IMG/VR virus record: IMGVR_UViG_3300032240_001872
Span: 1 to 64,000 of that record
Source: a virus
Direction: 5' to 3' (one strand)
Length of the DNA: 64,000 nucleotides
Below are positions 42,043 through 63,297 of this stretch, piece after piece. The notes below the pieces were generated by a model. It did not search any database and was not told where the DNA came from. It saw only the letters and a program-made list of their open reading frames with translations. The translations under genes were made by a program, and so were the position numbers. Each line of letters begins with the position of its first letter. Position 1 is the first letter of the stretch.

Positions 42043-42635
42043 ATATTAGCACCTATCATAATTCGATCCTGGATTGCATTGTTAGGCAATGTTTTGTGAT
42101 TTAGGTATCCCGGAAACAATATTAAGTCACCTGTTTTAACAGGAACATGGTATTCCCAAAATTCTGGATGATTCCTAACCAAGTCCATATCATATGGTTG
42201 ATGTTTCATCAGGGCCATCATAGGATGTTCAAATACTAAATTACCACCATTATCCGGCTGTTGTAGATAAAAACTTGCAATCATTTGTACAGGACTGTGA
42301 GCATGCACATCTATGAATGATCCAGTTTTATATACATTCGTCCACATTTCAAAAACACTAGGCTGTTGTAATGGAGAATATCCTAAATCTTTCCAATATA
42401 TGTGAGAATGTTCTTCGATAAATTTTACTAGGGATTTAAATTTAGTTTGAGTATGCAGGTCTCTAGATGTGTTATATGAACACAAACCGTCTCCCCTCAT
42501 AAATTCTTGATTGTTCTCTTTGGCAGAACTATAAGATTTTTCAAGTAGTACATTTACTGTGTCTAACATTGACTGGCAATCAAAACCGCTAGATACATGA
42601 TATATTTTAGTTGGAAATATGTTGATCGTACTCAT
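42027..42635 (-). CDS. 2OG-Fe(II) oxygenase (cyanophage-like family)
   Basis: A 202-residue protein starting FPTKIYH, as is typical for the putative 2OG-Fe(II) oxygenases of marine phages. Metal-site residues are His111 and His113 (IDVHAHSP), His180 (YLNHKT) and Arg191 (QDRIMIGANI). SFYLQQPDNGGNLVFEHP forms the central strands. It overlaps the upstream radical SAM gene by four bases. The protein at 12491 is a distant relative. Confidence 0.88.
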   Translation of the reverse strand: MSTINIFPTKIYHVSSGFDCQSMLDTVNVLLEKSYSSAKENNQEFMRGDGLCSYNTSRDLHTQTKFKSLVKFIEEHSHIYWKDLGYSPLQQPSVFEMWTNVYKTGSFIDVHAHSPVQMIASFYLQQPDNGGNLVFEHPMMALMKHQPYDMDLVRNHPEFWEYHVPVKTGDLILFPGYLNHKTLPNNAIQDRIMIGANICNVL

Positions 42636-44110
42636 TTTTCTAATTTTTTCTTTTTATATTCTTTTTCAGGCTCTCTAGTGCTCATCGGTTGCTGTGTGAA
42701 ATCGATCTTCATTATCTCTTCCATGCTTAGACCGTAAAACGCATGATCACTAAACGCATACATTGAAATACCCATTTGTATTTTTTTATCAATAACTTTT
42801 CGATAGAAGTCATTACTTATTCTACAAGCGTCAGCGAAACTCATATTATCGTTAGCCCAATTCATATTTGATATACCGTGTTTGATACGAGTAATTGATC
42901 CCATTGCTTCCCATTCGGGTGGAGGAGGTGGCGGTTCTTCTGTGCCTTCTCTGTATCCGTATTTTTCAAAGTCTTTAGATATAAGGCTCAACACATCTTG
43001 CTTTGGGTCTAACGGAATTTCTAATGGCCAGACGTGTATTGATTCACCTTGCCAGTTGTCTTCAATCCATTGTAATGTCTTTGTTTGACTATCGATCGTT
43101 TCGTGTGGTAATCCAACAACAATGCCCATTGAGGATCTATAGTGTCCCCTAGCTTTAAAATATTCTCTGGCTTCTATTAGGCCTGCTTGTAACTTCTCAG
43201 GGTTCATGCCTTTACCAATGGCTTTGGCAGTAGCGGCATTCATTGTTTCTACACCATAGAAGTGTCCAAAGAACCCCAGTCTAGCCATTGGATCCCAGTC
43301 TTGCTTCCTTGCTACCATTAGGTCAGCACGGATGAATCCAGAGAAGTATGTATCAAATGATAACTGGTCAGCAATATCTGCAAACTTCTGTATCTTTTCT
43401 GTACGATCATTAAATGTTTCGTCAGCAACATAATAATTACTTACTCCCCATCGATCATAATTATCCCGCATTTCTATTCCAAAGTCCTCAGCATCTCGAC
43501 TATAGTCTCCTTTAACTCCAAGTACTGGAAAATTACAATAGTCACATTGAAATTTACAACCTCTAGAAAATTCCACAGTTAACCATTCCCAGGGCTGTAT
43601 GTAATCGCGGTCTTCATATATTACCTTAAGACTCTTCATAGGAAAACTAGGATATGATGTGTTGGCACTAATAACACGCTTTGCTCCAAAAAACAAAGGA
43701 TCAAAAGCTATTTTAACTCCCGGGGTCCCTATCATATACTTTACTAATTCTAAGATAGCCATTTCACCGTACCCGTGAATGTAGTAATCAACACCCTTTG
43801 CTTCAATACGTGGCCGACTTTGCCCGCCAATTACTATCTTAACATGGGGAAACGTTAATGTGATCCAATCTATAAATTGATCCATTTCCGGAGTCCAGTA
43901 TGCAAAGAAACTGCTGAAGCCTATAAAAATTGAGTTAGAGGTTATTCTTCGATGGCAAATTTCTTTTAGTTCTTCAAATTTCCAACTTGCGGCATATTCA
44001 ATTACTTCGGCATCCCATCCTTGCTCACGCAAAAAGGATGCAATACGATAAGGGCCAGACGGACGTCTTACTCCTAACCAATGAACGTTAAAAAACAAGG
44101 CATGGTGCAT
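42632..44110 (-). CDS. Radical SAM enzyme with N-terminal B12-binding-like domain
   Basis: A 492-residue relative of the tandem pair at 31190/32808. GPYRIASFLREQGWDAEVIEY and KIVIGGQSRPRIE define the N-terminal Rossmann-like domain. The cluster motif CKFQCDYC has Cys185, Cys189 and Cys192, and ADETFNDRTEKIQ and YGVETMNAATAKAIGKGM follow. A Pro-rich loop (EEPPPPPPEWE) sits near residue 395. The C-terminus is strongly basic (KEYKKKKLEK). It starts one base after the SDR stop. Substrate unknown. Confidence 0.9.
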   Translation of the reverse strand: MHHALFFNVHWLGVRRPSGPYRIASFLREQGWDAEVIEYAASWKFEELKEICHRRITSNSIFIGFSSFFAYWTPEMDQFIDWITLTFPHVKIVIGGQSRPRIEAKGVDYYIHGYGEMAILELVKYMIGTPGVKIAFDPLFFGAKRVISANTSYPSFPMKSLKVIYEDRDYIQPWEWLTVEFSRGCKFQCDYCNFPVLGVKGDYSRDAEDFGIEMRDNYDRWGVSNYYVADETFNDRTEKIQKFADIADQLSFDTYFSGFIRADLMVARKQDWDPMARLGFFGHFYGVETMNAATAKAIGKGMNPEKLQAGLIEAREYFKARGHYRSSMGIVVGLPHETIDSQTKTLQWIEDNWQGESIHVWPLEIPLDPKQDVLSLISKDFEKYGYREGTEEPPPPPPEWEAMGSITRIKHGISNMNWANDNMSFADACRISNDFYRKVIDKKIQMGISMYAFSDHAFYGLSMEEIMKIDFTQQPMSTREPEKEYKKKKLEK

Positions 44111-44111: not shown

Positions 44112-44723
44112 TTACATCCTGTTAAGTAACGATAGACTGTATATGAAACAATTAGATTTAATTGAATTAATCATAAATTCAACAGCATTTGTAACATCAT
44201 CAACGTCTATTAATACTCCCCTCTTTTTAAAATCTTTATAATGTTCAAGTAAATTTTCTGGATCAATCCCATAGGGATTTTCAAAACCGGTTTCAACGAT
44301 ACCCAATAATAAACTCATGGCTTTACATTTACTGTCTCGTTGATCACAAATATCAAATGTTTTTTGATTTAATCTGTGTTTTTCTTCCGCATAAGGAACT
44401 AGATGTGGCAATTTATTTGCAACGTCAAACATAGGATCTGACGCAAGAGTACTAACATTAATGATAAAATGCTCTTGACCGTTATGTATATTTTTCCAAA
44501 GTTCTGCAATCTTAGTCTGCTGGTCAAAATGATATGCATTGTTAATAAAGACATCGCAGTCACGAGTTTCGTCTAGAATACGTAGTATGTCTGTATCTTT
44601 TGAAATGTCATAACCGTTGGTTCTACTAAAGCCAACAACATCATAGGTTTCTGATAGTCGACTGAGCAAACTTTTACCAATTCCTTTAGTATGCCCAGTT
44701 ATGGCAATCTTTTTAATGTTCAT
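44112..44723 (-). CDS. Short-chain dehydrogenase/reductase
   Basis: A 203-residue SDR. ITGHTKGIGKS (9-16 core) is the NAD(P)-binding TGxxxGIG, VFINNAY corresponds to NNAG, and YAEEKHRL supplies the catalytic Tyr and Lys. I start it at the ATG at 44723, because the Rossmann strand begins at once and an AGTAAATA box lies five bases upstream; the ATG at 44729 overlaps that box. A close paralogue is at 48050. It heads a leftward operon of six genes. Confidence 0.88.
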   Translation of the reverse strand: MNIKKIAITGHTKGIGKSLLSRLSETYDVVGFSRTNGYDISKDTDILRILDETRDCDVFINNAYHFDQQTKIAELWKNIHNGQEHFIINVSTLASDPMFDVANKLPHLVPYAEEKHRLNQKTFDICDQRDSKCKAMSLLLGIVETGFENPYGIDPENLLEHYKDFKKRGVLIDVDDVTNAVEFMINSIKSNCFIYSLSLLNRM

Positions 44724-44728
44724 ATTCA

Positions 44729-44736
44729 TATTTACT
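44729..44736 (-). promoter_or_regulatory. Late-promoter-like box AGTAAATA
   Basis: Minus strand; followed by TGAAT and the ATG at 44723. It pairs with the identical box on the plus strand at 44750-44757. Confidence 0.5.
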
Positions 44737-44749
44737 TTATAAACTACTC

Positions 44750-44757
44750 AGTAAATA
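44750..44757 (+). promoter_or_regulatory. Late-promoter-like box AGTAAATA
   Basis: Plus strand; followed by CAGTC and the ATG at 44763. No Shine-Dalgarno sequence fits between box and ATG. Confidence 0.5.
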
Positions 44758-44762
44758 CAGTC

Positions 44763-45419
44763 ATGAGCGCATTAGAATACAAAGACTATCCCTTATTGCC
44801 AGATTGGTTAGAAGATCATCTTTATAATATACTTGAAGATCAACACTCTAGTGCGATTACCTATGACGACGATTTCAAAGAACGTATGCTTAAAGAAGCA
44901 GAAATGCTGATGGGTGGAGCAGATCAAGCAACACTAGATGCTATTGCATTTTTAGACTATAATGAAGAAGATACTTTAGGCGGTCCATTTACTGATCCTA
45001 GCGCATATGAATTTTTTACTGAGAGACTGGCAAGATTTGATTTTATTCCAGTAGACCAGATCGTGATAGATTGGGTCACTGCAAATATACCAGAAAAGGT
45101 CATAGGTGTTAATTTACAAGTTATGCATAGCGGAGAAATAATTACTCCGCATATTGACGAACTGCGGCATTATGCATTGAACTATACATTAGAGCGCGGT
45201 GGCCATGTACGTACATGTTTTTATGAAGTTTTACCAGAATGGTCACATCAAAAAGCATACGCTAGAACATTAATACCATTTGGTAAACTTAAAGAGACAC
45301 TATCGGAAGAGATTCCAGAAAGGCGTTGGCATAAACTAGATATACAGGTCATCCACGGTGTCTTAGATTTAGATCCAACTAAAAAGAGAATTGCATTAAG
45401 CGTAAGCATAAGCAGATGA
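44763..45419 (+). CDS. 2OG-Fe(II) oxygenase-like protein
   Basis: A 218-residue protein with His130 and Asp132 (ITPHIDEL), His198 (VIHGVLD) and Arg209 (KKRIALSVSI). NLQVMHSGEIITPHIDE and LNYTLERGGHV are typical jelly-roll strands. It probably hydroxylates an amino acid or small molecule. It heads a two-gene rightward unit with a class III aminotransferase (four-base overlap), which hints that both act on the same amine or amino acid. Confidence 0.78.
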   Translation: MSALEYKDYPLLPDWLEDHLYNILEDQHSSAITYDDDFKERMLKEAEMLMGGADQATLDAIAFLDYNEEDTLGGPFTDPSAYEFFTERLARFDFIPVDQIVIDWVTANIPEKVIGVNLQVMHSGEIITPHIDELRHYALNYTLERGGHVRTCFYEVLPEWSHQKAYARTLIPFGKLKETLSEEIPERRWHKLDIQVIHGVLDLDPTKKRIALSVSISR

Positions 45420-46609
45420 ATACAAACATAATATTTCCCTACGCAACTAATGATAACCAACCTACACGTAGCATAGAACAGTATACCGACTATGGCTTCA
45501 TTGAAAACGGTGCAGAGTACTTGGATTTAAGTTTAGGTGCTTGCGGTTGCTTTCCGTTAGGGTTTAAACGCAACGATATTATTGAAGCTGTTACTAAGCG
45601 CATGATCAACAATCCGTTCTGTGGCGGGGAGTTTTATACTACCAATCCTGCTGTAATTGAATTGACAGATAAGATAGCTAATCTAAGCGGTGGATATAAA
45701 ACTGCATTTGCCCTAAGCGGCAGTGATGCCGTAGAAGGTGCATTACGATTAGCACAGATGTACAATAAGCGTAACAAATTCTTAGGGTTCACAAAAAGTT
45801 ATCACGGCAGTACGTTCCTAAGTTCGAGCGTAAGTGATGCAACATACATGACCAACACATTTGGTAAAGATGTTCGCTGTGTTATTAGCAACTATACACT
45901 AGACAATATCACAGATGACTTGTGTGCTGTTGTGATAGAAACTGCCAGTTGGCAAAATGGATTATATGATCCAGGACAAGATTTTTGGAAAGGTCTACGA
46001 AAGATATGTACCGATAAAGACATAGTCCTTATTGTCGATGACATCGCAATGTGCGGTGGGAAGACTGGTACATTCTTTGGGTGGCAGGGTAGGATACAAC
46101 CTGATATTTTTACAATGGGCAAGGCCTTAACTGGCGGTTACTTTCCACTGAGTGCTGTATGTGCTGATACAAAGATATTTGATCGTGTTAAGCATGATGT
46201 CTTTATACACGGCTTCAGCTATAGTTTTAGCCTAAGCGGAATCTATTCTGCATTAGAATATATGAATGTGTTAGAAAAAGAGCAACTGTTAGTTAATCAA
46301 CCCAAAATAGAACTCTGGGGACAACAGATGTGTAAGAGGTTTAAAGACAGCGGCCTGATTAAAGATTACAGTAATTATGGACTGTTGTTTAACCTAGTAC
46401 TGCCTAATGAAAAGCCTATGGACAGCACGTTTGAACGCTTTCTATATCAGTACGGAATAAATGCAGGAATGTGGAATGAGGGAGGCACTGGTGTGCTGTT
46501 TGTAGTTCCGCTTAATGCTCCCGCTATGTGGTTTGAAGAACTAGAATATAGATTGAATACTGCTCTATTTGATTATAGAGCGATTGTCGCCTTCCCTAGA
46601 CAAATCTAA
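45416..46609 (+). CDS. Class III PLP-dependent aminotransferase
   Basis: A 397-residue enzyme. YLDLSLGACGCFPLGF corresponds to the family N-terminal region. LSGSDAVEGALRLAQ binds the PLP phosphate, VDDIAMCGG holds the PLP-pyridine Asp, and the Schiff-base Lys236 is in TMGKALTGGYFPLSAV. It transfers amino groups between an omega-amine or amino acid and a keto acid. Its 3' end overlaps the opposing amidinotransferase gene by 45 bases. The adjacent amidinotransferase suggests amine or guanidine chemistry in this sub-region. Confidence 0.93.
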   Translation: MNTNIIFPYATNDNQPTRSIEQYTDYGFIENGAEYLDLSLGACGCFPLGFKRNDIIEAVTKRMINNPFCGGEFYTTNPAVIELTDKIANLSGGYKTAFALSGSDAVEGALRLAQMYNKRNKFLGFTKSYHGSTFLSSSVSDATYMTNTFGKDVRCVISNYTLDNITDDLCAVVIETASWQNGLYDPGQDFWKGLRKICTDKDIVLIVDDIAMCGGKTGTFFGWQGRIQPDIFTMGKALTGGYFPLSAVCADTKIFDRVKHDVFIHGFSYSFSLSGIYSALEYMNVLEKEQLLVNQPKIELWGQQMCKRFKDSGLIKDYSNYGLLFNLVLPNEKPMDSTFERFLYQYGINAGMWNEGGTGVLFVVPLNAPAMWFEELEYRLNTALFDYRAIVAFPRQI

Positions 46610-47638
46610 TGTCATACAATGTACACCGCTTTCCCAGAATAGCCCGTGTCGCTGTTTGACTACATGCGGAGTAATTCCCCAACCTTCTAGCATTTTAAAT
46701 AATCTAGGTTGAGTATTAGAAAAGATAACGTTTTGCGGATTAATGACCAGAACGTTACTGTCAAAGAATACATCCTGCGCATATCCCTTCCATTCGTTTA
46801 ACCAAGTATCAATCCATTCTTTGGTAAACTTGCCGCCTGTTTTTGTATAGCTGGCAATAAACTTTTCATCATCAAATTTATCAACTAGATTTTCAAACTC
46901 TACAATTTCTTTGTTGCGCAATGGTTCAGGTACCCATGACTTGTTAGCACAGAATACTAGATCATCGTTAGTCATAAACCAGCCATGATCAATGTGTCCC
47001 CAACTCTTTTGAAAGTTGCGTCCTGCGCTGACAATAGTGCTGGAAGGTAAATTACGGCTCATCCATTCAAGGCCTGACTCTGTACCGGGACCTTCTGTGT
47101 TGGTAATCAACTTATCTCCACATTTAAACATAGTAGCAGTATGCCAAAGTATACGATTGCCTAATGTATGATGATATATTTCCTTGCCGTCTGCCCACCA
47201 TTTGTCTTTTTGCAATGCTTTTAGTACAGGTGGCGGTTGGCTAATCCAATTATACCCTTCATCAAACTTTTGTTTGAATATGTGATTGTAATTAATACTA
47301 TCTAAGTATCTATCCGGCATGCTGGTATATGTTTGGTAGATTGTTTTTCCATATGCAAGATATTGATCGCGTGGAACCACCGGAGCAGTTGGATTTAGTA
47401 TCTTAAAGTATCCTAGATCAACATATGATTTATATTCAGGAACTTTTGGTCTATGCACTTTGATTTTAAATGCAGTCAAGTAGTCTGCAAGATTCTGCAG
47501 GTCCTCCTTAGTTTCCTCTAATATCTTATTAAACTGTAGTTCTGCACCTTTGGGTAGTACACTATCTAATGTACCAGGGGCATAGCAGTCACCGACAATA
47601 ACTTCTTGTAAGGGATCCCAATTTGTGTAAATGCTCAT
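46565..47638 (-). CDS. Amidinotransferase (glycine amidinotransferase-like)
   Basis: A 357-residue member of the amidinotransferase/arginine deiminase fold. NWDPLQEVIVG is the family start, GHIDHGWF carries the catalytic His region, and ESGVHCMTLDLSRE holds the nucleophilic Cys341. Length and ends match glycine/inosamine amidinotransferases better than deiminases. It transfers an amidino group from arginine to an amine. It is the last gene of a leftward operon with an unknown protein and an SDR upstream. Confidence 0.9.
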   Translation of the reverse strand: MSIYTNWDPLQEVIVGDCYAPGTLDSVLPKGAELQFNKILEETKEDLQNLADYLTAFKIKVHRPKVPEYKSYVDLGYFKILNPTAPVVPRDQYLAYGKTIYQTYTSMPDRYLDSINYNHIFKQKFDEGYNWISQPPPVLKALQKDKWWADGKEIYHHTLGNRILWHTATMFKCGDKLITNTEGPGTESGLEWMSRNLPSSTIVSAGRNFQKSWGHIDHGWFMTNDDLVFCANKSWVPEPLRNKEIVEFENLVDKFDDEKFIASYTKTGGKFTKEWIDTWLNEWKGYAQDVFFDSNVLVINPQNVIFSNTQPRLFKMLEGWGITPHVVKQRHGLFWESGVHCMTLDLSREGDNRSIIK

Positions 47639-48057: not shown

Positions 48058-48661
48058 TTGATATCGTTAACGATGATATGAAGTTACGACTGTTTGCATG
48101 AGTTAATACATTTGCAATGGATTCTACTACGTCGTTCACTTCTAATATTGTTCCTTTGTTTTCTAAAGTTTGATAAAACTCTGCCATCCCTTGATCAAAT
48201 GGAAACCCGCTAATAAAATCTGTATTAACAATTCCAGGCATAGCTGTAATACATCTAGCTTTTGATTCGCTAAGATTAATAGTATTACCTACATTGTTCA
48301 GCAACATTTTGTTTATTCCGTACTCTACTATTTTTTTATTTTTTATATTCAACTTATGCACTACATTTTCGCTACTGCCTAATGAACTCATATTAAGAAT
48401 ATAATGTTCTTTTTCATAATGAGCATTATGCCATTGTAAAGCAATATAAGCCTGTTGCTCATCGTAATAGGCATTATTAATGAATAAATCACAGTCTATC
48501 GTCTTCTCTATAATTTCTAAGATGTCATCATTGCAACTGATATCGTAACCATTAGATTTACTAAATCCCTGTACTATACACCCCTTACTTACAAAGTAAT
48601 TGTATAAGCCTTTACCTATTCCAGCAGTATGCCCTGTAATAGCAACTGATTTAAATTCCAT
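48050..48661 (-). CDS. Short-chain dehydrogenase/reductase, paralogue
   Basis: A 203-residue SDR from the ATG at 48661, which overlaps the previous stop by 11 bases; a start at 48712 is less likely because the Rossmann strand VAITGHTAGIGKG begins immediately here. INNAYYDEQQAY matches the paralogue at 44112, as does GYDIS. The active-site Tyr-x-x-x-Lys appears as YGINK. The pair probably arose by duplication. Confidence 0.87.
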   Translation of the reverse strand: MEFKSVAITGHTAGIGKGLYNYFVSKGCIVQGFSKSNGYDISCNDDILEIIEKTIDCDLFINNAYYDEQQAYIALQWHNAHYEKEHYILNMSSLGSSENVVHKLNIKNKKIVEYGINKMLLNNVGNTINLSESKARCITAMPGIVNTDFISGFPFDQGMAEFYQTLENKGTILEVNDVVESIANVLTHANSRNFISSLTISNG

Positions 48662-49982
48662 TCCAGTCTCCATTTGTATGCCATGTAGGCCTTTGTAATT
48701 TATCTGATACATTGCCCACCATGATCAGTGTAGCATCTGGTACGTATTTTTTTAATTTGTCTAGTAACAAACGTTCATTATATATCCTGTGCTTCAACGG
48801 AACAAATGGGGCGACTGGGTCATAATTAAAAATATGACTAAGGTGTATAATTGTACTAGGTACATTGTCTACCCACGTGCTCACAGGCAACGCTGTGTTA
48901 AGCACAAGATCCTGGTGATGAAACTCAAACTTAACTTTATGTATCATATCATTCCACATGCGAGGATCAACCGTTTGATCTCCTCCTGTCATAGTAATCA
49001 TGTGTTCACCGCCTGAGCTTAAAATGCTCTTTCGACTGGCAATATAATCTTTAACAAAAGTTATATAGTCGTAGTTAGGATTCCAATTTGTAACTATATG
49101 TTGCATACATTCAAGTGCAAATAAGTTATAGTCAACAAACTTGACTGTAGTATTTTCATCGTATCCATAGTAGAGCAAATACTCATACCACTGTAGTCCA
49201 CTTGATTGAATTACCAACTGTTGTATAGGACCTTTGAAATCTACAGCAACAAACTCTTCTGTGTTGTAGGGATAAAACAATGCCTGACTTGCAACGCTGT
49301 ACTTTCCATATAGGTACGAGCTCTTAGGAATAAAAGCAGGTTCGTAGTTAGGATAGTAATACATCTTGTTGTTTCTAAACCGTTCTGGAAATGGTCTAAC
49401 ATGTTTGTTGTTAGCAAATGCCACACTTAGAATGTTCCATCCGTGCCACTTATGTTTATACTGTTTAGGAGTATCGCCACCTGTCACCCAAATAGGTGTA
49501 TAATCATCGTGTATATTTTCTTCACTGCGGCGTGGCTCTATTTGTGTATGTAGGGAATAATAAGCAAACTCTCCAACTTCTGGACAGCCTAAATCTTTAT
49601 AAATGTCTAGGTTAATAATGTAGCATTGTTCATGTAGTTCATAGTAACCATCGTCTCTGTCTGGAATGTGCCCATAGATAAAAATGTTTCTATCACTATA
49701 TACTTCGTCCTCTACATAGTTAAAGAACTCGTCACCGTTAATAAATTCTGTGCCTGTACTTAGTACAACTGCATGACTATAGTCTTTGGCGGCTTCCCTG
49801 AGCATAGCATCTTCGTCTAAGCCTTGTATAACATTGAATCCGCTATCAATAATTTTGCTCAAAACAAAGTCGCTGAGATTCTTCATCAACTCAGCAGTCC
49901 ATGCGGTTTGGCAGGTGTGTATTCTATCCAAGAAGATAAAGACAATATCTTCTGATCCTGCCGGCGTATTAAATTTGACCAT
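48651..49982 (-). CDS. Large unknown protein
   Basis: A 443-residue protein with no family I can name. Two Rossmann-like stretches are suggested: VFIFLDRIHTCQTAWTAELM with AVVLSTGTEFINGDE near the start, and TVKFVDYNLFALECMQHIVTNW near residue 285. Tyr and Asn are abundant. It could be a glycosyl- or methyl-transferase-like enzyme, but no catalytic motif is clear. It overlaps the upstream oxygenase gene by 14 bases and the SDR by 11. Confidence 0.6.
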   Translation of the reverse strand: MVKFNTPAGSEDIVFIFLDRIHTCQTAWTAELMKNLSDFVLSKIIDSGFNVIQGLDEDAMLREAAKDYSHAVVLSTGTEFINGDEFFNYVEDEVYSDRNIFIYGHIPDRDDGYYELHEQCYIINLDIYKDLGCPEVGEFAYYSLHTQIEPRRSEENIHDDYTPIWVTGGDTPKQYKHKWHGWNILSVAFANNKHVRPFPERFRNNKMYYYPNYEPAFIPKSSYLYGKYSVASQALFYPYNTEEFVAVDFKGPIQQLVIQSSGLQWYEYLLYYGYDENTTVKFVDYNLFALECMQHIVTNWNPNYDYITFVKDYIASRKSILSSGGEHMITMTGGDQTVDPRMWNDMIHKVKFEFHHQDLVLNTALPVSTWVDNVPSTIIHLSHIFNYDPVAPFVPLKHRIYNERLLLDKLKKYVPDATLIMVGNVSDKLQRPTWHTNGDWNGI

Positions 49983-50622
49983 ATTGTTTATTATAACATC
50001 TTACGAACATTTCGCAAAACTCTTTCTTACGATTACCTAAAATAATATTAGCAATCATATGTACTCTGGACTTACTACTGCGATTAAACACAGCATGATT
50101 TTTGCTTATGTTAATCATAAAGATTTTACCTTCTTTCCAAGGAACAACACCGTGTCCTTCTATTTCCATTTCACAGTTTATCGGATGGGTGATAGCCAAG
50201 TTGATAGGCAGTACAGCATCTAACGGTTCAATACCAGGGGGCAAGTTGCCGTCATTGTGCCAATCGATGTAGCCGCCGGGTCCAATCTTCATAAAGCGGA
50301 TACGGCTGTATCTTTCAGCAGGAAATTGATTTTTCCAAAAGTCTGTTATAGCAGGAGTCTTATATGCTAGGTCAGTGTATTGATAAGGTGCATTATATTC
50401 GTCATAGCCGTAGTTGTCCGCAGTATATGTTTTATCTACGCCCAACCCGTGCAAACAACAGCTAGACCATTGACTACTATCGCTTTGTCTATATTCGTTA
50501 AAGTAGGGCTCGATTTCTAGTATCTGCTGTTTCCACACATCGACTGGAAAATCTAGATCAAGTTCAAGCCACGGAATATAGGTTGTGTTTAAGATCTTAC
50601 GTGCTTGTTCTATAATATCCAT
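49969..50622 (-). CDS. Asp/Asn hydroxylase-like 2OG-Fe(II) oxygenase
   Basis: A 217-residue protein. SRIRFMKIGPGGYIDWHNDGNLPP gives His122 and Asp124. LPINLAITHP is the next strand, KNHAVFN holds His176 and SRVHMIANI holds Arg186. This is the Asp/Asn beta-hydroxylase arrangement. It is one of six consecutive oxygenase-like genes on this strand (49969-53579). It overlaps the next by 13 bases. Confidence 0.83.
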   Translation of the reverse strand: MDIIEQARKILNTTYIPWLELDLDFPVDVWKQQILEIEPYFNEYRQSDSSQWSSCCLHGLGVDKTYTADNYGYDEYNAPYQYTDLAYKTPAITDFWKNQFPAERYSRIRFMKIGPGGYIDWHNDGNLPPGIEPLDAVLPINLAITHPINCEMEIEGHGVVPWKEGKIFMINISKNHAVFNRSSKSRVHMIANIILGNRKKEFCEMFVRCYNKQYGQI

Positions 50623-51179
50623 TGTTTAAATATTTCCTTTGCTTGTTCCATCGTAAGTCCTGCCTCTGGTGCAGATTTAATACTAATATCACAACTTAGA
50701 ACCCACCTAGGTTCAAACATACTATTATGTATGTTGTGCGGAATTCCTGTTTGAACAATACTAGGCCATTTTATGGATTGGCTGTGTAAATGTTCCACTT
50801 GTGAAGGATGATATTGTACATATGGCGTTCCTGCTTGTGTTTTTGTATTTTCAAAAGGTTCTTGTCTATCTTTAACAACATACCAATGCATTAAACTTCC
50901 TGCGCCAGCCACACACCAATTCATACATGCGCGATCCGATAGCTCTCCGTAGCCATCAATATGTATGCCACATTGTTTTCCCTTAGGGGTATAAAATATT
51001 AAAGGAGGATAAGTCATAACTAACCCTAAACTGTCTAACCACTCAGTAAATTCAATTGAAACATTGTTGTGGTCAGCGAACCATATTTCAGCCGTATCTC
51101 CTGTCTGATTTAATATACTAGGATCTTTTAACGGATGAGCAACAGGGATAGATAAGTCAACACAATAATTACTTTTCAT
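50610..51179 (-). CDS. 2OG-Fe(II) oxygenase-like protein
   Basis: A 189-residue protein from the ATG at 51179, 11 bases inside the preceding gene. His73 and Asp75 (GIHIDGYGE), His148/His151 (IPHNIHNS) and Arg158 (PRWVLSCDI) fit the double-stranded beta-helix metal site. MNWCVAGAGSLMHWY is a central strand pair. Part of the tandem oxygenase array; substrate unknown. Confidence 0.75.
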   Translation of the reverse strand: MKSNYCVDLSIPVAHPLKDPSILNQTGDTAEIWFADHNNVSIEFTEWLDSLGLVMTYPPLIFYTPKGKQCGIHIDGYGELSDRACMNWCVAGAGSLMHWYVVKDRQEPFENTKTQAGTPYVQYHPSQVEHLHSQSIKWPSIVQTGIPHNIHNSMFEPRWVLSCDISIKSAPEAGLTMEQAKEIFKQWIL

Positions 51180-51732
51180 TTGGCCATCCAAAAAAGTTAA
51201 ACATATATTTTGTTTTAACACCCATGTTTAATCCACCATGCCAGTCTTGCCAGCTGTCCCATTTATATGCATCTCCTTGTGCCGCATTGTAGATTGCATG
51301 TCCATCTATGATTGATACTTGCCCAAAACTAGGTTCACAAATATAAACTGTATAATGCTCCGGTACACCAATTTCTAACCACTTACGTTCTTGTTCTGGC
51401 GTTTTATAATCTGGATGCCACGGGACAAGATGGCCAGGCGGAACCGAGCTTACCCAACAGCCTGCTGGCTTGACCTTTAGATATTCGGCAAACTTATCAA
51501 CCCATTCTTGAGGAAAGTGCTCGCCTGGCAGAAAGTCTACCCATTGCACACTAGGACTATCTACGTATCCTGCCTTACCCCAAATCTTTATTAGTGATTC
51601 TACTTTTGGATTATTAACGTGTATATTATCTGTTTGATCAGAACCCCTATGTCTTGGCGGTACTGATTCTAGTATGGAAATAAGTTTTGACCATTCCATA
51701 TGATTGTTTGTATTACCAATAAATGTGGCCAT
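51169..51732 (-). CDS. 2OG-Fe(II) oxygenase-like protein, tandem paralogue
   Basis: A 187-residue protein beginning MATFIGN. GCWVSSVPPGHLVPWHPDYK gives His106 and Asp108, DWHGGLNMG gives His165, and KTKYMFNFFGW closes the fold with Lys in place of the usual Arg. The next gene upstream shares MAKFIGN, VEWINYYPGKHF, HKD, AWHAGGN and KFLFNFLG, so the two are tandem duplicates. Their stop and start share a base. Confidence 0.75.
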   Translation of the reverse strand: MATFIGNTNNHMEWSKLISILESVPPRHRGSDQTDNIHVNNPKVESLIKIWGKAGYVDSPSVQWVDFLPGEHFPQEWVDKFAEYLKVKPAGCWVSSVPPGHLVPWHPDYKTPEQERKWLEIGVPEHYTVYICEPSFGQVSIIDGHAIYNAAQGDAYKWDSWQDWHGGLNMGVKTKYMFNFFGWPNEK

Positions 51733-52274
51733 TACTTTATTCCTAAAAAGTTAAACAAAAATTTGTCGTGCAATCCACAATTACCGCCTGCATGCCAAGC
51801 CATATAATCGTCCCATTGATAGGTGTTACCCGATGCTTCGCAATGAAAACATTGATCGTCTACGATAAAGACACCACCGGGATGAGGCTGGCTAATGAAT
51901 GTGCCAAATCTAATTAATTCTCCTTGAGACAGATATGTTTCTATTTGATCGTCTATATCTTTATGTATTGGTGCATATTTGCCAGGACGAATCCTACTAA
52001 TCCATGCTCTTGCGCATCTCGTATTAGTAAACTTTTCAAATTCTTTGATTGGTAGATCATCAAAATGCTTTCCGGGGTAGTAATTAATCCATTCAACTGT
52101 GTCTACTTTGTTGTATCCAGCAGTTTCCCACAGATCAATTATTTCATTAAATCTACCATCTGTATTTTTATAGAAAGCCTGTTTATTATCTCTAACATCG
52201 CCTTCCTGTATCAGCAATGTTTCAATAATACTATCCCATTTGCCAGCAAAAAAATTACCTATAAATTTAGCCAT
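51732..52274 (-). CDS. 2OG-Fe(II) oxygenase-like protein, tandem paralogue
   Basis: A 180-residue protein from the ATG at 52274 (an in-frame alternative is at 52286). His104 and Asp106 (APIHKDIDD), His161 (AWHAGGN) and Lys171 (HDKFLFNF) trace the metal and co-substrate site. Lys instead of Arg at the end is shared with its paralogue at 51169 and may signal a subfamily with different 2-oxoglutarate binding. It overlaps the upstream gene by eight bases. Confidence 0.75.
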   Translation of the reverse strand: MAKFIGNFFAGKWDSIIETLLIQEGDVRDNKQAFYKNTDGRFNEIIDLWETAGYNKVDTVEWINYYPGKHFDDLPIKEFEKFTNTRCARAWISRIRPGKYAPIHKDIDDQIETYLSQGELIRFGTFISQPHPGGVFIVDDQCFHCEASGNTYQWDDYMAWHAGGNCGLHDKFLFNFLGIK

Positions 52275-52926
52275 GCTGATCCTCAATCACGTATTCTTTA
52301 AATTTTTCTACACTTCGTTCTATTAGTTGTCTATGTTTATCATTATCTAATATACCAATACAGACCAATATAAGTCTTCCATCTAACACAACGTCAGCAC
52401 CGTGATATACGTCTCTATTGTTAAAAGAATATACAGGGTAGTCTTTAAGTATAGTGGGATATATTTTTTTACTATTGTAATCTTTAGCAAGATAGAAAGA
52501 ATCTTGTCCGTAGTGTGGAGACAATAATACATTGTACCTCTCAGGGCTAATCGCAGATTCGGAATAAACTCTATCTCTGTGTGTAGGTAATAATTCAGTA
52601 TGCATGTTTAGTGCCGCACCTACTATTTGTTGATAAGGTAGCAATTTTAATAGATCTACTAATTCTGGAAACTGTTCTAGAACTCCAGGGGCATAGTATA
52701 AAGTGTTGTCCTCTCTTAATTCAAAATCAGCATTGGTATCTGGTTTGAATACATCTGTAGCATCTTTCCAGTTGCTTATCGGATTACGAGACACAATGGC
52801 ACACATTTGAGATGTATAGCCCGTTGTTTGGTATAGGTTAGGCATATAATTGCTATTAAAATAGTCTACTAACTTTTGGTAATCGGGTAACTTAACAGTA
52901 ATATCTACAGGTGTATAGATTATCAT
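52267..52926 (-). CDS. 2OG-Fe(II) oxygenase-like protein
   Basis: A 219-residue protein with His116 and Asp118 (LPTHRDRV), His175 (DVYHGADVV) and Arg184 (GRLILVCIGIL). The spacing matches small phage oxygenases. It is fourth in the tandem array and overlaps the upstream gene by four bases. Substrate unknown. Confidence 0.72.
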   Translation of the reverse strand: MIIYTPVDITVKLPDYQKLVDYFNSNYMPNLYQTTGYTSQMCAIVSRNPISNWKDATDVFKPDTNADFELREDNTLYYAPGVLEQFPELVDLLKLLPYQQIVGAALNMHTELLPTHRDRVYSESAISPERYNVLLSPHYGQDSFYLAKDYNSKKIYPTILKDYPVYSFNNRDVYHGADVVLDGRLILVCIGILDNDKHRQLIERSVEKFKEYVIEDQHG

Positions 52927-53579
52927 ACTATTACAAATCCTTCGGGCAACACAGTTTTAAGAACATCAATAATAGCAGGATATATCTTAAATTTAACTCC
53001 GGTTGGTGTCGTACTAAAATCACTAATCATTCGCATCTTATTAACATTGTTAAGCCAAGGGCTTAAGACTGCATCAAATTTATGTCTAACATGATCACCT
53101 GTTGCCTGTATTTCAATAGATACTAATGCATCATTAATTACTTTAGTTAGCAGTTGACGTACTACTAACTGTATACGATCTCCACGACCAAAGTTTGCGG
53201 CAGTATGTTTCTTTCCAGCGTTCATTAGATACCAATAGCCGTCTGCTATTAGTAGATTCATTTGCTCGGTGTCTAGATCGATGAGATAGCTGTCATTGCC
53301 TGCAATGTTTAAATGATATCGATCATCTATATCTGCATGGCTTTGATAACAGGTACCTTCTTTTAATATAATGATACGTGCTTCGCCAATATCAAAGTCA
53401 AATCCTGATAACAACTTCTCCCATACTGTATTCTTATATTCTTCTTTAATGGTCCAAGGATCGTAAAAGAAACTTCCAGTTGGCTCGTTAATAGTCAAAC
53501 GAAATTCATCAGACGGTAAGTTATTAACTGCATCTGCAAGTAATTCCTTATTAATCTTAATGTCTGTTTTCTTCAGCAT
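52923..53579 (-). CDS. 2OG-Fe(II) oxygenase-like protein
   Basis: A 218-residue protein from the ATG at 53579 (TTG at 53582 just before it). His81 and Asp83 (YQSHADIDDRYHL), His125 (GKKHTAANF) and Arg135 (GDRIQLVVRQ) resemble the Asp/Asn hydroxylase site. The last ~75 residues form an extra domain. It overlaps the upstream radical SAM gene by 23 bases, linking the oxygenase array to radical SAM chemistry. Confidence 0.75.
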   Translation of the reverse strand: MLKKTDIKINKELLADAVNNLPSDEFRLTINEPTGSFFYDPWTIKEEYKNTVWEKLLSGFDFDIGEARIIILKEGTCYQSHADIDDRYHLNIAGNDSYLIDLDTEQMNLLIADGYWYLMNAGKKHTAANFGRGDRIQLVVRQLLTKVINDALVSIEIQATGDHVRHKFDAVLSPWLNNVNKMRMISDFSTTPTGVKFKIYPAIIDVLKTVLPEGFVIV

Positions 53580-54648
53580 CAAACACTCCTGTATCTACAA
53601 TAGTACTTAACGTAGATATTAATTGTTTACGATCTACACTTTTTGGAGCGCATAGTCCGCAAGCACAAAACGTATTAGGACATACAATAATAGGCATTGT
53701 ATTATTAACTAGGTTATTTCTTAGCGTATCGAGTATAGCACTACTATTACTAATTGATCCAATAGGACCAGTAGTACCATCAAATCGTGCTTGGCAAGTC
53801 TGATGATGATACACGCTGTCTGTTTGTTGTTCAATATGCAAGAAGTACCAATTAACTGAGCAATGCCAGTCTTTAAACTTTCTATAGGTCAAGAACTTGA
53901 CTTCCTGTGTGTCAGTGTCGTTGCTAATTTTCATACTTCTTCCGCCACAACACGGCCGACCAATCTCTGCACCAAAACCAGATGAACTGTTTGAATCCAC
54001 ATTCCAATAACTATTGAACCATTTAAGTTGGTCCTGTGTGTATCGGTGCCCGTATGTTTCTCCTCCTGGGTTCTCTCCAATCATTCTAGGAATATACTGT
54101 ATTCCTTGTTGTTTAAGAATATTACATACATCAACACACTCATCAAAATGTTGTGCATGGAACATGACATTAACTTTAACTGATGTATTACTGTGCAACT
54201 GACGCACACGTTCTAATACACGCTTCTTAAGTTTAGCATCTGCTTCTGCATGATAACTCACTGTTACATAACTAAAGGTATTTCCTACGGCCTCTGCAAC
54301 ACGCTTGCCCATTGCACCATTTGTAGTTAATGCTAGATGTAGGTCTACGCCAGGTAGCTGTTTACTGTTTAGATGATTAACTAACTGTAGAAATTTAGGA
54401 TTAACAGTTGGCTCTCCTCCTGTTAGACTAATATGAAAGTCTTTGTTAGTTCTGTATTCTGCAATAGTACTAATATAGTCAAATATAAAATCAGCAGTTG
54501 TAGTCAATTGATCTAGTGTAGCATGTTTGCTAAAGTTGTCATGATGTATCGGCGCACAATATGTACAGTCGTAGTTACATCTTCTACCTAAGTCCCAGGT
54601 TATCATAAAAGGATCCGAACTGGTGGTAGTTAAACAATTAAATTTCAT
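53557..54648 (-). CDS. Radical SAM enzyme with Cys-rich C-terminus
   Basis: A 363-residue protein. ITWDLGRRCNYDCTYC has Cys24, Cys28 and Cys31, and SLTGGEPTVNP binds SAM. C-terminal cysteines (PCCGGRS, WHCSVNW, HHQTCQ, CPNTFCACGLC) indicate one or two extra clusters. It shares WxLGxRCNYDCTYC with the protein at 58407. It overlaps the upstream twitch-type radical SAM gene by four bases, and the oxygenase array follows. Confidence 0.9.
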   Translation of the reverse strand: MKFNCLTTTSSDPFMITWDLGRRCNYDCTYCAPIHHDNFSKHATLDQLTTTADFIFDYISTIAEYRTNKDFHISLTGGEPTVNPKFLQLVNHLNSKQLPGVDLHLALTTNGAMGKRVAEAVGNTFSYVTVSYHAEADAKLKKRVLERVRQLHSNTSVKVNVMFHAQHFDECVDVCNILKQQGIQYIPRMIGENPGGETYGHRYTQDQLKWFNSYWNVDSNSSSGFGAEIGRPCCGGRSMKISNDTDTQEVKFLTYRKFKDWHCSVNWYFLHIEQQTDSVYHHQTCQARFDGTTGPIGSISNSSAILDTLRNNLVNNTMPIIVCPNTFCACGLCAPKSVDRKQLISTLSTIVDTGVFDAEENRH

Positions 54649-56057
54649 AATAGATGTGCAAGCTCTGGAAATATTTCTTTAGCATTAGTATTTCTATGAA
54701 TATCAAGTTTTTCTACATATTCTTTAAATGCAGGCAACAAATGACTTTTATCATTGGATAGCATAAACTTTAGAAATGCTTCATACCTAGGCCATGCATA
54801 GGGATTGTTCTTCCAGAAGTCATCATCTTGTGTATAGTTGTCCCATAGCCATTGCTTGAGTTCTGCAAATTTTTCTACTATTTCTTGTTTGTCTGCGGCT
54901 GGCAATACCTGTACGTTTAGCCATGTAGGAATGTGTACAACGTGCATATTAAAGATGCCACCACCGTAAAGCATACCTTCTGGGTTAAGGTCTAGGTTAA
55001 TCCGTTTAAAGCCGCTGGTCACTTTCCATTTTACAAAGTCGGGCAAGTGCTTAACGTTCAGTATCTGTATTGCAGGTACGATAGATGTTTCAATGTTATC
55101 AGGTGCATTATCTAGCATGGTTAGATTTTCCATTACATTGCTCCATTCACTAGGGTATCTAATGTACCAATTGCGTAGTTCCATTCCGTCTAAACTAAAC
55201 CCAATTCTTACCTTTTTAAATTTGCTCCATAGGTCTACCATACGCTTACTGATCAGCAATCCGTTGGTATTGTAACGTATCATAATCTTGTCGGCATAAC
55301 CTTGTCGTATAATTTCTTCTAAGAATAGTGCATGCTCTTTAATGATCAACGGCTCTCCACCCGCAAAGTATACTTGCTTTAGGTTAGGAATCTGTGCATA
55401 CATCTCTTTCCAGAAGTCTGGATTCTCGTGCCACGAGTTATTGAATGATGCTTTGTCCCAAGACATAAAACGTTTTAGTTCAGTTGCTTGATATGTTGGA
55501 TATACCTTAGCATGTTCGTCTACCCATTTACTGCTGTCGTGCGGACTACACATCACACATTTCAATTGGCATGTATGTCCCAGTCGTAAGTCTAAGTAAA
55601 CCAGCTTCTCAGGAACTGTACCATCTTCTGCTGTGTTTGCAATTAGCTCTGGAATATCTACATCACTCTGTGACCAGAATAACGATTCCCAAAGACGCTT
55701 ACTGCTTATGCCACTGCTTTCTTCTGTAAAGCATCTATTACAGCTTGCTGGTATCTTACCTTCCATCATGGTCAATCTTACATCTTTCATGTACTCGTTG
55801 TTCCATGCGCTCATAGGTGTTTCACGGCCAAAGTTTGCAGGCTCGCCTTTTTCATTCTTAACTAAACCAACTGTATGATCTACTCCAGGGGCACTGGCAT
55901 TAGAACTACAGCATAAACGCATATCACCATTAGGGCGTGTAGCAAAGTGTATCCACGGCAACGCACAAAAAGTAGGCGATCCAGATATCTCTGTTAGAGT
56001 CTTTTGCCATTTACCGACTTGTGTATCCTCTGATTGTATCCAAAATTGTTTGTTCAT
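54645..56057 (-). CDS. Twitch-type radical SAM enzyme
   Basis: A 470-residue protein from the ATG at 56057, fixed by the CATAAATA box five bases upstream. An N-terminal Cys domain (FCALPWIHFATRPNGDMRLCC at 30-50, SCNRCF at 105-110) precedes the core motif CQLKCVMC (Cys163, Cys167, Cys170). YFAGGEPL follows, then SLDGMELRNWYIRYPS. This order, with an N-terminal cysteine module before the radical SAM core, is shared with the two rightward genes at 56098 and 57152. The family often works on peptides or glycans; substrate unknown. Confidence 0.9.
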   Translation of the reverse strand: MNKQFWIQSEDTQVGKWQKTLTEISGSPTFCALPWIHFATRPNGDMRLCCSSNASAPGVDHTVGLVKNEKGEPANFGRETPMSAWNNEYMKDVRLTMMEGKIPASCNRCFTEESSGISSKRLWESLFWSQSDVDIPELIANTAEDGTVPEKLVYLDLRLGHTCQLKCVMCSPHDSSKWVDEHAKVYPTYQATELKRFMSWDKASFNNSWHENPDFWKEMYAQIPNLKQVYFAGGEPLIIKEHALFLEEIIRQGYADKIMIRYNTNGLLISKRMVDLWSKFKKVRIGFSLDGMELRNWYIRYPSEWSNVMENLTMLDNAPDNIETSIVPAIQILNVKHLPDFVKWKVTSGFKRINLDLNPEGMLYGGGIFNMHVVHIPTWLNVQVLPAADKQEIVEKFAELKQWLWDNYTQDDDFWKNNPYAWPRYEAFLKFMLSNDKSHLLPAFKEYVEKLDIHRNTNAKEIFPELAHLL

Positions 56058-56062
56058 GGAAA

Positions 56063-56070
56063 TATTTATG
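56063..56070 (-). promoter_or_regulatory. Late-promoter-like box CATAAATA
   Basis: Minus strand; followed by TTTCC and the ATG at 56057. Confidence 0.6.
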
Positions 56071-56084
56071 TACCTACATAATAG

Positions 56085-56092
56085 GGTAAATA
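56085..56092 (+). promoter_or_regulatory. Late-promoter-like box GGTAAATA
   Basis: Plus strand; followed by TTTCC and the ATG at 56098. Confidence 0.55.
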
Positions 56093-56097
56093 TTTCC

Positions 56098-57159
56098 ATG
56101 AGTGCTACCATCTGCGCATATCCTTGGAATAGTTTAGCTATAAACCCTAATGGTAGGGTGCTTCCTTGCTGTCGGTACGCCGCACCAAACTATACTATTG
56201 TAGACTATTCAAGAACATCAGAACATTGGAACGAGCTACGCAATAGAATGTTAGCTGGAGAGAAATCTCAAGGCTGTGAAAAATGTTATAGAGATGAGGC
56301 AAGCGGTAATACCAGTATGCGTCAACGTAGTCTTGACTTTGTACCAAAAGAAAACCAAATAGTACCTTTAGACAAGCTAGAGATCTCATTCAACAACTTG
56401 TGCAATTTGGCATGCGTACATTGCAGTAGTGCATATAGCACCACATGGTATTCAGAGGACTATAAGAAAGGTAAGATTGGTAAAATAGGAATCATTGAAA
56501 ACAGTTTTCCTATAACCGATGAAGACCTTAGTCAGTTAACTGAACTAAAGATTATAGGTGGTGAGCCAATGCTACAGCAAGACAAGTTTATCGAGCTGTT
56601 AGACAAGGTTAACTTATCTAACCTAACTGTATGGATATATACTAACGGTACACACTTGCCTAATAATAGACTATTGGCACAGTTAAAAAAATGCAGAGAG
56701 TTTAAACTAAGTGTTAGTGTTGACGGCATAGATACTGTTAACGATTGGTATAGATGGCCCAGCAAGTTCGATCAAGTTATAGAAAACATGAAGGTATACG
56801 ACGAATGGTTCAATCAACAGAAACGAGTGCATTGTGTAATTAATGCGGTTAATGTTATGTACTTAGAAGAGTACATAGATTTTATGACAACTAATTTTTC
56901 AACATGGGAAATAGAATGGGATTGGATAGTGCATCCAGAGTGGCAACGAGTATCTGTGCTACCTAATACTATCAAAGAACAATTGATTGCTGACTTTAGT
57001 AATAAAGGATATCCCTATACCACTACTATAGATAGGCTGTCTGATAAGATCAGTCTCGATTGGACTGATTTTAAAAACAATGTAAATCAATTATCATCTG
57101 ATAGAAACTTAGATTTTCTAGCAATGGTACCAAAATTTTCTAAGGCATGGAATGAGTAA
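56098..57159 (+). CDS. Twitch-type radical SAM enzyme
   Basis: A 353-residue protein from the ATG at 56098; an in-frame start at 56050 would lie across the promoter box. The N-terminal module has ICAYPWNSLAINPNGRVLPCC and GCEKCYRDEASG. The core motif CNLACVHC has Cys102, Cys106 and Cys109. KIIGGEPML and SVSVDGIDTVNDWYRWPS follow. It is a shorter version of the divergent gene at 54645 and overlaps the next twitch gene by eight bases. Confidence 0.9.
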   Translation: MSATICAYPWNSLAINPNGRVLPCCRYAAPNYTIVDYSRTSEHWNELRNRMLAGEKSQGCEKCYRDEASGNTSMRQRSLDFVPKENQIVPLDKLEISFNNLCNLACVHCSSAYSTTWYSEDYKKGKIGKIGIIENSFPITDEDLSQLTELKIIGGEPMLQQDKFIELLDKVNLSNLTVWIYTNGTHLPNNRLLAQLKKCREFKLSVSVDGIDTVNDWYRWPSKFDQVIENMKVYDEWFNQQKRVHCVINAVNVMYLEEYIDFMTTNFSTWEIEWDWIVHPEWQRVSVLPNTIKEQLIADFSNKGYPYTTTIDRLSDKISLDWTDFKNNVNQLSSDRNLDFLAMVPKFSKAWNE

Positions 57160-58414
57160 TAGTAAAACATTTTGTATGCATCCTTTTACAGGATTAGCTA
57201 CTAGAGAAGACGGCGCTGTTAAAGTTTGCTGTCGTAGTCAACCCGTTGGGTTTATACAAAACCATAGTTTGGAGGAGATATGGAACGGCCCTACTATGCG
57301 TAGAATACGCAAAGATGTTCTAAGCGACAAGCGTCCGCCAGAATGTATGCCATGTTTCCAATTAGAAGATCAAGGCGTAGAAAGTCTACGTCAACGACAC
57401 ACTAATGGTATTATTCCTGAAGCACGTATAAATCTATATCCTAATGCTTTGGACAGTTTAGGTAATGATTATAAGATGCCGTTTGAGTTTCCAACTATAG
57501 AGATTAAACTTAACAATCTATGCAATCTTAAATGCCGTATGTGCAATCCACTAGACAGCACCAACTGGAAAGATTGGGATCAAGTTGAAGAGTTTTATAA
57601 AAAAGAAAACAACTATCTTGTACCTACAATACAAAAGTTGGTCAACAAGCCAGGACAGTATATAGGTCCATTTGACAATACAGAAAATTGGTGGCACAGT
57701 TTTGAAAAGCTATTACCGCATTTTCGTCGTGTAGAGTTTGCAGGCGGGGAACCATTAATGGATCCGCAACATTACAAGATATTAGATATGCTCAAACCTT
57801 ATGGTAAGGATATTGAGATCAAGTATGCCACTAATGGCACAACGCTAGGAATTAGCAAAGGAAGAACTATACATGATTATTGGCCCCATTTTAGATCAGT
57901 TGCCGTTAATGTCAGCCTTGACGGCATTGGTCCTGTTTACGAGTACATACGTGGTAACTCTAATTGGACTGAAGTTGTGGAGAATATTCAAGACATACAA
58001 ACAATCTCGAACGTCAGCAGAGTCGTTGGCGCCGTTGCAGTACAAGTAAGTAATGTGTTAATCTTAGATAAAATGATTGAAGAGTTTCTTGACAAAATGG
58101 GCGTTGTATTTTATACTAACATGGTGCAACATCCAAATGTTTTATCTGTTCAGGTATTGCCAAAGGCTCTAAAAGACCTAGCCATCACAAGGTTACAGGC
58201 AGTAAAATTAAAAGTACCTGACTACAAATATGTCAAAGAAAACCCTATCCTATTAGGCATAACATTAAAACAAATAGACGGTGTAATTAATTACTTGAAC
58301 GCAAAAGATCAGCATAGCAAATGGAAAGATTGTATTGAATTTAATCGTAGATTAGATGTGACCCGTAATCAAAGTTTTCTTGATGTCACCCCAGAGTTTA
58401 AACCGTATGCTTAA
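57152..58414 (+). CDS. Twitch-type radical SAM enzyme
   Basis: A 420-residue protein. The N-terminal FCMHPFTGLATREDGAVKVCC and ECMPCFQLEDQG form the leading cysteine module. The core motif CNLKCRMC has Cys124, Cys128 and Cys131, with EFAGGEPLMDP and NVSLDGIGPVYEYIRG after it. With the genes at 54645 and 56098 it makes three related enzymes within 3.8 kb. It overlaps the next radical SAM gene by eight bases. Confidence 0.9.
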   Translation: MSNSKTFCMHPFTGLATREDGAVKVCCRSQPVGFIQNHSLEEIWNGPTMRRIRKDVLSDKRPPECMPCFQLEDQGVESLRQRHTNGIIPEARINLYPNALDSLGNDYKMPFEFPTIEIKLNNLCNLKCRMCNPLDSTNWKDWDQVEEFYKKENNYLVPTIQKLVNKPGQYIGPFDNTENWWHSFEKLLPHFRRVEFAGGEPLMDPQHYKILDMLKPYGKDIEIKYATNGTTLGISKGRTIHDYWPHFRSVAVNVSLDGIGPVYEYIRGNSNWTEVVENIQDIQTISNVSRVVGAVAVQVSNVLILDKMIEEFLDKMGVVFYTNMVQHPNVLSVQVLPKALKDLAITRLQAVKLKVPDYKYVKENPILLGITLKQIDGVINYLNAKDQHSKWKDCIEFNRRLDVTRNQSFLDVTPEFKPYA

Positions 58415-59333
58415 AGTTACAGGCCGTTGGGGACATGAGAGTTCTATCAAAGTAGAATGGAACCTTGGAAAACGCTGTAACTACGACTGTACATATTGTC
58501 CAACAAGTATACACGATAACTCTAGCGACCATATTGATATAGAAACGCTCAAAAAAGTTATAGACCAATTAGTTGCGCTAGGAAAGCCTATTAGACTCAG
58601 TTTTACTGGGGGCGAACCTACTGTACATCCTAAATTTGAAGAACTTGTTAACTATGCTAAACATGTTGGTATACATTGGATCAGCGTGACTACCAACGGT
58701 ACACGCAAGCCCGAATGGTATGATCGATTGCGAGTAGATCAATTTGTGTTTAGTGTACACTTTGAATATGACTATCAGCGAGTTATACATACTATAACAA
58801 GCCTTAAGAACTTTGCTAAAACATCTATTGTTGTACAACTAATGGCCCATCACGATCATATGGCAAACGTTAAAGATGTAGCAGAATACTTAAAGATTAT
58901 GGAGTTTCCTTTTACTGTTCGTAGAATACGCTGGACGGAAGGTGATCATAATATTTTTGATGACATGCGATATCACCCAGATGATTTTAAGTGGCTTATG
59001 GAGCGAGAAGCAACAGTTAAGACCAATGTAATAATTTGGTTAGACGACAAGTATACACAAATACCAAAACATGCCAACGATGTTATAAAAGAACATCTAA
59101 ACAAATTCAAAGGGTGGACCTGTAATGCAGGCATAGAAAGTCTAATGATCAACTGGGACGGAGATGTGCATCGTGCAACTTGTAGGGTAGGCGGCAGTCT
59201 AGGTAATATATACGAAGGCAACTTTATTGTACCTAATGAATCTGTAACTTGCGATCGAGACTTCTGCACCTGTGCGGCAGATATTCCGTTGACTAAGATT
59301 AAGTCTTTGAGTTTTCAATCAGTTGAATCATAA
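58407..59333 (+). CDS. Radical SAM enzyme
   Basis: A 308-residue protein from the ATG at 58407, overlapping the previous stop by eight bases; upstream in-frame codons at 58380 are less likely. VEWNLGKRCNYDCTYC has Cys24, Cys28 and Cys31, and SFTGGEPTVHP binds SAM. GWTCNAG, TCRVGG and CDRDFCTCAAD near the end are probable auxiliary-cluster cysteines. It is closest in layout to 53557 and 62305. The 3' end overlaps the opposing gene by 35 bases. Confidence 0.9.
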   Translation: MLKVTGRWGHESSIKVEWNLGKRCNYDCTYCPTSIHDNSSDHIDIETLKKVIDQLVALGKPIRLSFTGGEPTVHPKFEELVNYAKHVGIHWISVTTNGTRKPEWYDRLRVDQFVFSVHFEYDYQRVIHTITSLKNFAKTSIVVQLMAHHDHMANVKDVAEYLKIMEFPFTVRRIRWTEGDHNIFDDMRYHPDDFKWLMEREATVKTNVIIWLDDKYTQIPKHANDVIKEHLNKFKGWTCNAGIESLMINWDGDVHRATCRVGGSLGNIYEGNFIVPNESVTCDRDFCTCAADIPLTKIKSLSFQSVES

Positions 59334-63270: not shown

Positions 63271-63274
63271 GATG

Positions 63275-63282
63275 TATTTAAA
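63275..63282 (-). promoter_or_regulatory. Late-promoter-like box TTTAAATA
   Basis: Minus strand; followed by CATC and the ATG at 63270. Confidence 0.5.
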
Positions 63283-63297
63283 CGTATTATAGTAGCA

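Follow-up and report, generated by a model that had tools for sequence, protein, structure and literature searches.

The virus record IMGVR_UViG_3300032240_001872 of IMG/VR carries six closely packed genes with the active-site pattern of non-haem Fe(II)/2-oxoglutarate (2OG) oxygenases. We lean towards the view that these genes encode 2OG-type oxygenases of five families, and that they make up one block of a multistep phage tailoring cassette in which a conserved core and a set of exchangeable enzymes act on a common product. The stretch analysed here, the window, is the first 64 kb (positions 1 to 64,000) of this 79,749-base record, and genes are named by their lower coordinate. The six genes, which we refer to as the array, occupy positions 49969-53579 on the minus strand, inside a gapless cassette of ~33 kb (30268-63360; 99.9% coding). 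The genes, their invariant ligands, predicted beta-helices for two of the families, a conserved gene order and the distribution among viruses are what we could show; catalysis, the use of 2OG and a single shared product are what we infer.

The six-gene array

The six open reading frames (ORFs) lie on the minus strand where the initial annotation had placed them, each with an HxD...H...R/K site. With ATG starts, neighbouring genes overlap by 13, 11, 1, 8 and 4 bases. We rejected the motif on its own as proof, since it also occurs in 13 of 77 control ORFs from a related phage and in 12-19% of shuffled versions of the six proteins. Because the motif is so frequent by chance, we examined the conservation of the ligands across orthologues. 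Both histidines and the aspartate are invariant in the family alignments of all six genes (7-15 proteins each), which is the HxD/E...H iron-ligand conservation of the Fe(II)/2OG oxygenase superfamily. Moreover, the proportion of nonsynonymous differences (pN, 0.13-0.49) is far below that of synonymous ones (pS, ~0.7-0.8), the synonymous sites being saturated, so that dN/dS values are unreliable. Judged from these sequences, the six genes are real proteins under selection.

The assignment to the 2OG-Fe(II) type is supported for five of the six genes, through a family match or a predicted fold. The sixth, 52267, for which no 2OG Pfam match was found, is a candidate on its motif and conservation only. 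In searches against PF05118, the aspartyl/asparaginyl beta-hydroxylase family, 49969 scores well above the gathering cut-off of 22.6 bits (44.8 bits, E 1.5e-11), 52923 falls 0.2 below it (22.4 bits), so that its assignment stands at the border of the cut-off, and the other four array genes have no match. The 51732/51169 family is predicted with high confidence to form a double-stranded beta-helix, with a predicted local distance difference test (pLDDT) score of 92.9, and the assignment of 51169 rests on the alignment it shares with 51732. Among solved structures, its fold is matched best by AspH, at the top for 51732, proline hydroxylases and AlkB, with template modelling (TM) scores of only ~0.45. 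The array resembles PF05118 through 49969, the borderline 52923 and the top match of 51732 to AspH, but differs from it in that only two of the six genes match the family by sequence and in the TM-scores of ~0.45 of the fold matches. A beta-helix is also predicted for 50610 (pLDDT 86.5). Its nearest solved structures are cupins, cysteine dioxygenases and JmjC hydroxylases (TM-scores <0.5), with close, uncharacterised viral homologues by fold (TM ~0.8), and the modelled fold alone is compatible both with a 2OG oxygenase and with some other cupin-type metalloprotein. In each of the two models, an early strand of the core finishes at the proximal HxD, a late strand begins with the distal histidine and the one after it with the Lys/Arg, positions that would fit those expected of 2OG enzymes. 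Sequence searches of the PDB with four family profiles returned nothing, or weak matches at chance level. A double-stranded beta-helix is predicted for 51732/51169 and 50610; for 49969 and 52923 it is deduced from Pfam only.

Profile comparison revealed no convincing relation between the families except for the 51169/51732 pair, so that the six genes represent five families. A single gene family amplified in tandem was consequently rejected, these families not being detectably related by sequence. The pair itself had been described as a recent duplication with Lys in place of Arg. The lysine is indeed there, but the duplication is old, since the two proteins share 31% identity and fall into two groups, split at 100/99 support, each of which spans several viruses. 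A recent tandem array was likewise discarded, as these distant paralogues are the only ones among the six.

The initial annotation counted fourteen 2OG-type genes in the window. Five of the eight genes outside the array carry the motif, and three (12491, 15829 and 42027) lack the HxD pattern. Pfam 2OG-type families match 10302 (below its cut-off), 15057, 15829, 40356 and 42027, and the same search gave no match for 12491, 37866 or 44691 (the gene first listed as 44763). Because Pfam and motif support are so uneven, the fourteen are best regarded as candidates of unequal strength. In the TauD-family gene 40356 (40356-41414), His-Ser-Asn stands in place of HxD, a reading which suggests that its metal site may be altered. 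Beyond the window, the same record carries further 2OG-type genes, 69380 and 74449 by Pfam and 73886 by motif only.

A conserved core with exchangeable neighbours

The cassette around the array (Table 1) contains ~13 radical S-adenosylmethionine (SAM) genes, three of them of the B12 type, together with an aminotransferase, an amidinotransferase-like protein, a SAM decarboxylase and methyltransferases. PF04055 has 13 matches in the record. The initial annotation overlooked both the viral nature of the locus and its radical-SAM genes, which stand out no less than the oxygenases do. Two of the B12-type genes, 32808 and 42632, were recognised by NCBIfam, and the third, 31190, was assigned to that group because it shares 47-54% identity with it. 

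Table 1. Array and cassette genes in the window.
Feature	Coordinates	Strand	Remarks
Radical-SAM protein, core	30268..31215	-	proximal cassette edge
Two B12-type radical-SAM genes	31190..34421	-	31190-32821, 32808-34421
S-adenosylmethionine decarboxylase	35204..35554	+	PF02675
Radical-SAM protein	35551..36633	-	like TrsS/Tes families
Two core genes	36624..37831	-	36624-37166, 37154-37831; no function assigned
37866, candidate oxygenase	37866..38669	+	most conserved cassette protein; H177xD179...H233...R246 invariant; no Pfam match
Accessory block	39292..44110	-	radical-SAM 39292, TauD-like 40356, methyltransferase 41401, 2OG-FeII_Oxy_5 42027, B12-type radical-SAM 42632
Candidate oxygenase 44691 and class-III aminotransferase 45416	44691..46609	+	44691 by motif only
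Amidinotransferase-like protein	46565..47638	-	HCxTxDxxR in sequence; no Pfam match
Conserved gene, uncharacterised function	48651..49982	-	directly downstream of array; 14-base overlap
Array gene 6, PF05118-type oxygenase	49969..50622	-	217 aa; HND and distal His/Arg invariant
Array gene 5, beta-helix oxygenase-like protein	50610..51179	-	no Pfam family; H73xD75...H148...R158
Array gene 4, paralogue of 51732	51169..51732	-	31% identity; Lys at 2OG-binding position
Array gene 3, beta-helix oxygenase	51732..52274	-	H104xD106...H161...K171; core family of viral group
Array gene 2, candidate oxygenase	52267..52926	-	sole basis: invariant H116xD118...H175
Array gene 1, borderline PF05118 oxygenase	52923..53579	-	core family of viral group
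Radical-SAM gene	53557..54648	-	directly upstream of array
Twitch/SPASM radical-SAM protein, core	54645..56111	-	
Twitch radical-SAM protein, core	57152..58414	+	
Radical-SAM protein, core	58380..59333	+	
Radical-SAM protein, core	60721..61731	-	fast evolving
Methyltransferase-like protein, core	61718..62311	-	by reading; no Pfam match
Radical-SAM protein	62305..63360	-	distal cassette edge

Ten related viral contigs, gathered by searches with three of the six array genes, retain the cassette, and the order of the array is identical in all of them except G006. All six array genes are present in G001, in G008 and in the near-identical sequences G003 and G004, and five are present in G002, G007, G009 and G010. 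A profile of 37866 matched 388 stretches in uncultured viral contigs, a rough count obtained from two peptide patterns in which near-duplicate records are possible; the 80 best matches were retained. Among the large contigs with 37866, all 29 have the 51732 and 52923 families as well as between 7 and 17 radical-SAM genes, and the 50610 family is clear in only 1-2 of the 29. Thus, with two universal families and the rest accessory, the array is a lineage-specific assembly of two core genes and accessory ones. With five families and only two of them universal among these contigs, it is not a simple tandem array, and the multi-site modification of one substrate first proposed for it is plausible on indirect grounds, namely that the array is set within a conserved, gapless enzyme cassette. 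Separately, G022 and G023 each hold 6-7 matches to the 51732 family, a local expansion.

In our model, the conserved core would comprise five radical-SAM proteins (30268, 54645, 57152, 58380 and 60721), the oxygenases 37866, 51732 and 52923, the methyltransferase-like 61718, and 36624 and 37154. This core would act on the common product, and the exchangeable oxygenases, radical-SAM and B12-type enzymes, halogenases and amidino- and aminotransferases would vary that product from phage to phage. Comparison of G000 with G033 shows common flanks and different accessory genes. Indeed, the 331-kb contig G033 aligns, inverted and at ~30-86% identity, with most of the window to either side of the cassette, and its cassette has the same core with other oxygenases. 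In G009, a flavin-dependent halogenase of the tryptophan-halogenase family lies inside the cassette (65796-67343; L042:11796-13343; E 1.3e-88). A core that stays fixed, accessory enzymes that vary and an operon-like arrangement without gaps are the expected look of a multistep modification pathway.

Outside the cassette, the window holds a carbamoyltransferase gene (27285) and a gene of the tryptophan-halogenase family (13445-14701). A NifU-like iron-sulfur (Fe-S) scaffold gene (PF01592, 14698-15078), 82-86% identical in relatives, fits the radical-SAM load of the region and plausibly supports its many radical-SAM enzymes. Two subtilase-like genes of one phage family are also present (1195-2772 and 18703-23115), the longer of which reads as a fusion with an alpha/beta-hydrolase-like domain and tail-like repeats.

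What the cassette may modify

Our leading guess, a weaker step than the cassette itself, is that the product decorates the virion, with the tail or receptor-binding protein, or a glycan that it bears, as the target. We favour this target because tail, receptor-binding, glycosyltransferase-like and carbamoyltransferase genes adjoin the cassette. In G007, a receptor-binding gene with an Mtd_N domain directly abuts it, and the window has its tail genes to one side of the cassette. Some observations weigh against our main reading. The link to the tail is one of proximity only, the tail genes of the window lying >20 kb from the array; 52267 and 37866 have neither family nor fold support; and the shared locus may be merely a hot spot of gene exchange rather than the sign of one shared substrate.

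It seems unlikely to us that the output of the cassette is instead a small molecule or modified peptide that diffuses, in which case the virus would carry a natural-product cluster directed at the host or at competitors. Its enzymes are of classes typical of natural-product tailoring (B12-type and twitch/SPASM radical-SAM proteins, 2OG oxygenases, an aminotransferase, an amidinotransferase-like protein and a halogenase), but neither a precursor-peptide gene nor an assembly-line enzyme turned up along the gapless cassette, and export genes were not recognised. A cluster for ribosomally synthesised and post-translationally modified peptides (RiPPs) has its precursor gene beside the modifying enzymes. 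Here, enzyme-sized genes run throughout with no evident precursor, and a standard RiPP cluster is accordingly less likely; a precursor may still lie outside the cassette.

More doubtful still is a role in modifying nucleic acid, either hypermodified DNA or host RNA, that would evade defence or redirect translation. Phage base hypermodification uses radical-SAM, aminotransferase and acyltransferase enzymes. In addition, relatives G007 and G033 carry a QueC-like PP-loop protein, and 37866 is unusually conserved, as would suit an invariant substrate. Nevertheless, peptide hydroxylases predominate among the solved structures that best match the fold of 51732, AlkB ranking lower; the heavy turnover of accessory enzymes would be odd for a fixed base modification; and nothing in the window was recognisable as a base hydroxymethylase. 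Finally, it is very improbable that the oxygenases serve to alter the 2OG and nitrogen status of the host, the route proposed for cyanophage 2OG genes by Sullivan et al. 2010 (PMC3037559), as five distinct families in a fixed order beside radical-SAM genes point to specific substrates and not to bulk consumption of a co-substrate.

Carrier phages and known systems

The carriers of the cassette are uncultured T4-like jumbo myoviruses, as the T4-type portal and baseplate genes of relatives indicate: the portal of G033 shares 53% identity with its PA5oct counterpart, and the closest matches of the G009 baseplate hub (~33% identical) come from the same group of PA5oct-like jumbo phages. A cyanophage identity was dropped on account of these matches. 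The carriers differ from PA5oct-like T4-related phages in the 37866 family, which tblastn found in none of the 50,697 isolate-phage records searched. The same search with 51732, 52267, 32808 and 48651 gave no match in these records, and megablast of positions 40000-64000 of the window matched no known phage locus. Moreover, the 37866 profile, the one profile searched there, had no relative among 84,980 bacterial and archaeal species genomes (one per species). G033 also carries a permuted-type transfer-messenger RNA gene (L142:14035-14428; tag ANDEVYALAA) and a transfer RNA with anticodon CTA (L143:7801-7875).

Many 2OG genes, or many radical-SAM genes, have already been reported in marine phages. 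Cyanophages often have 1-5 2OG genes, and cyanophage S-SCSM1 has 24 2OG-Fe(II) oxygenase genes (PMC9602691). That phage resembles ours in that a single T4-like genome holds many small 2OG oxygenases, diverse and with little similarity to one another, but its families are pfam13640, 13661, 13759 and 05721, and radical SAM is not named in that report. Similarly, the marine T4-like genome TARA_ERS488813_N000010 (183 kb) has 12 radical-SAM genes, discussed as Fe-S metabolism (PMC5332604). It is comparable as a radical-SAM-rich T4-like phage with Fe-S assembly genes, and differs in that 2OG is not mentioned there. Searches of the open-licence literature, directed at radical SAM in jumbo or huge phages, at biosynthetic clusters of viruses and at the modification of tail fibres, brought up no account of a conserved cassette that unites 2OG and radical-SAM genes.

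In phages, 2OG and radical-SAM genes usually appear singly in lists of auxiliary genes without an assigned role. The conserved cassette is a defined gene set, with a core of ~11 proteins and ordered accessory genes, and with it the old question of how phages use these enzymes can be put to the test through heterologous expression combined with mass spectrometry. The cassette also supplies small oxygenases and radical-SAM enzymes that await characterisation. Tentatively, as a possibility that we hold with less than even confidence, the cassette could represent a virus-specific multistep pathway, one for which no cellular counterpart was found, in which a large group of uncultured jumbo phages has a radical-SAM and 2OG oxygenase core in common, recombines accessory oxygenases, B12-type enzymes and halogenases and would thereby diversify one product, as bacteria do with surface antigens and natural products.

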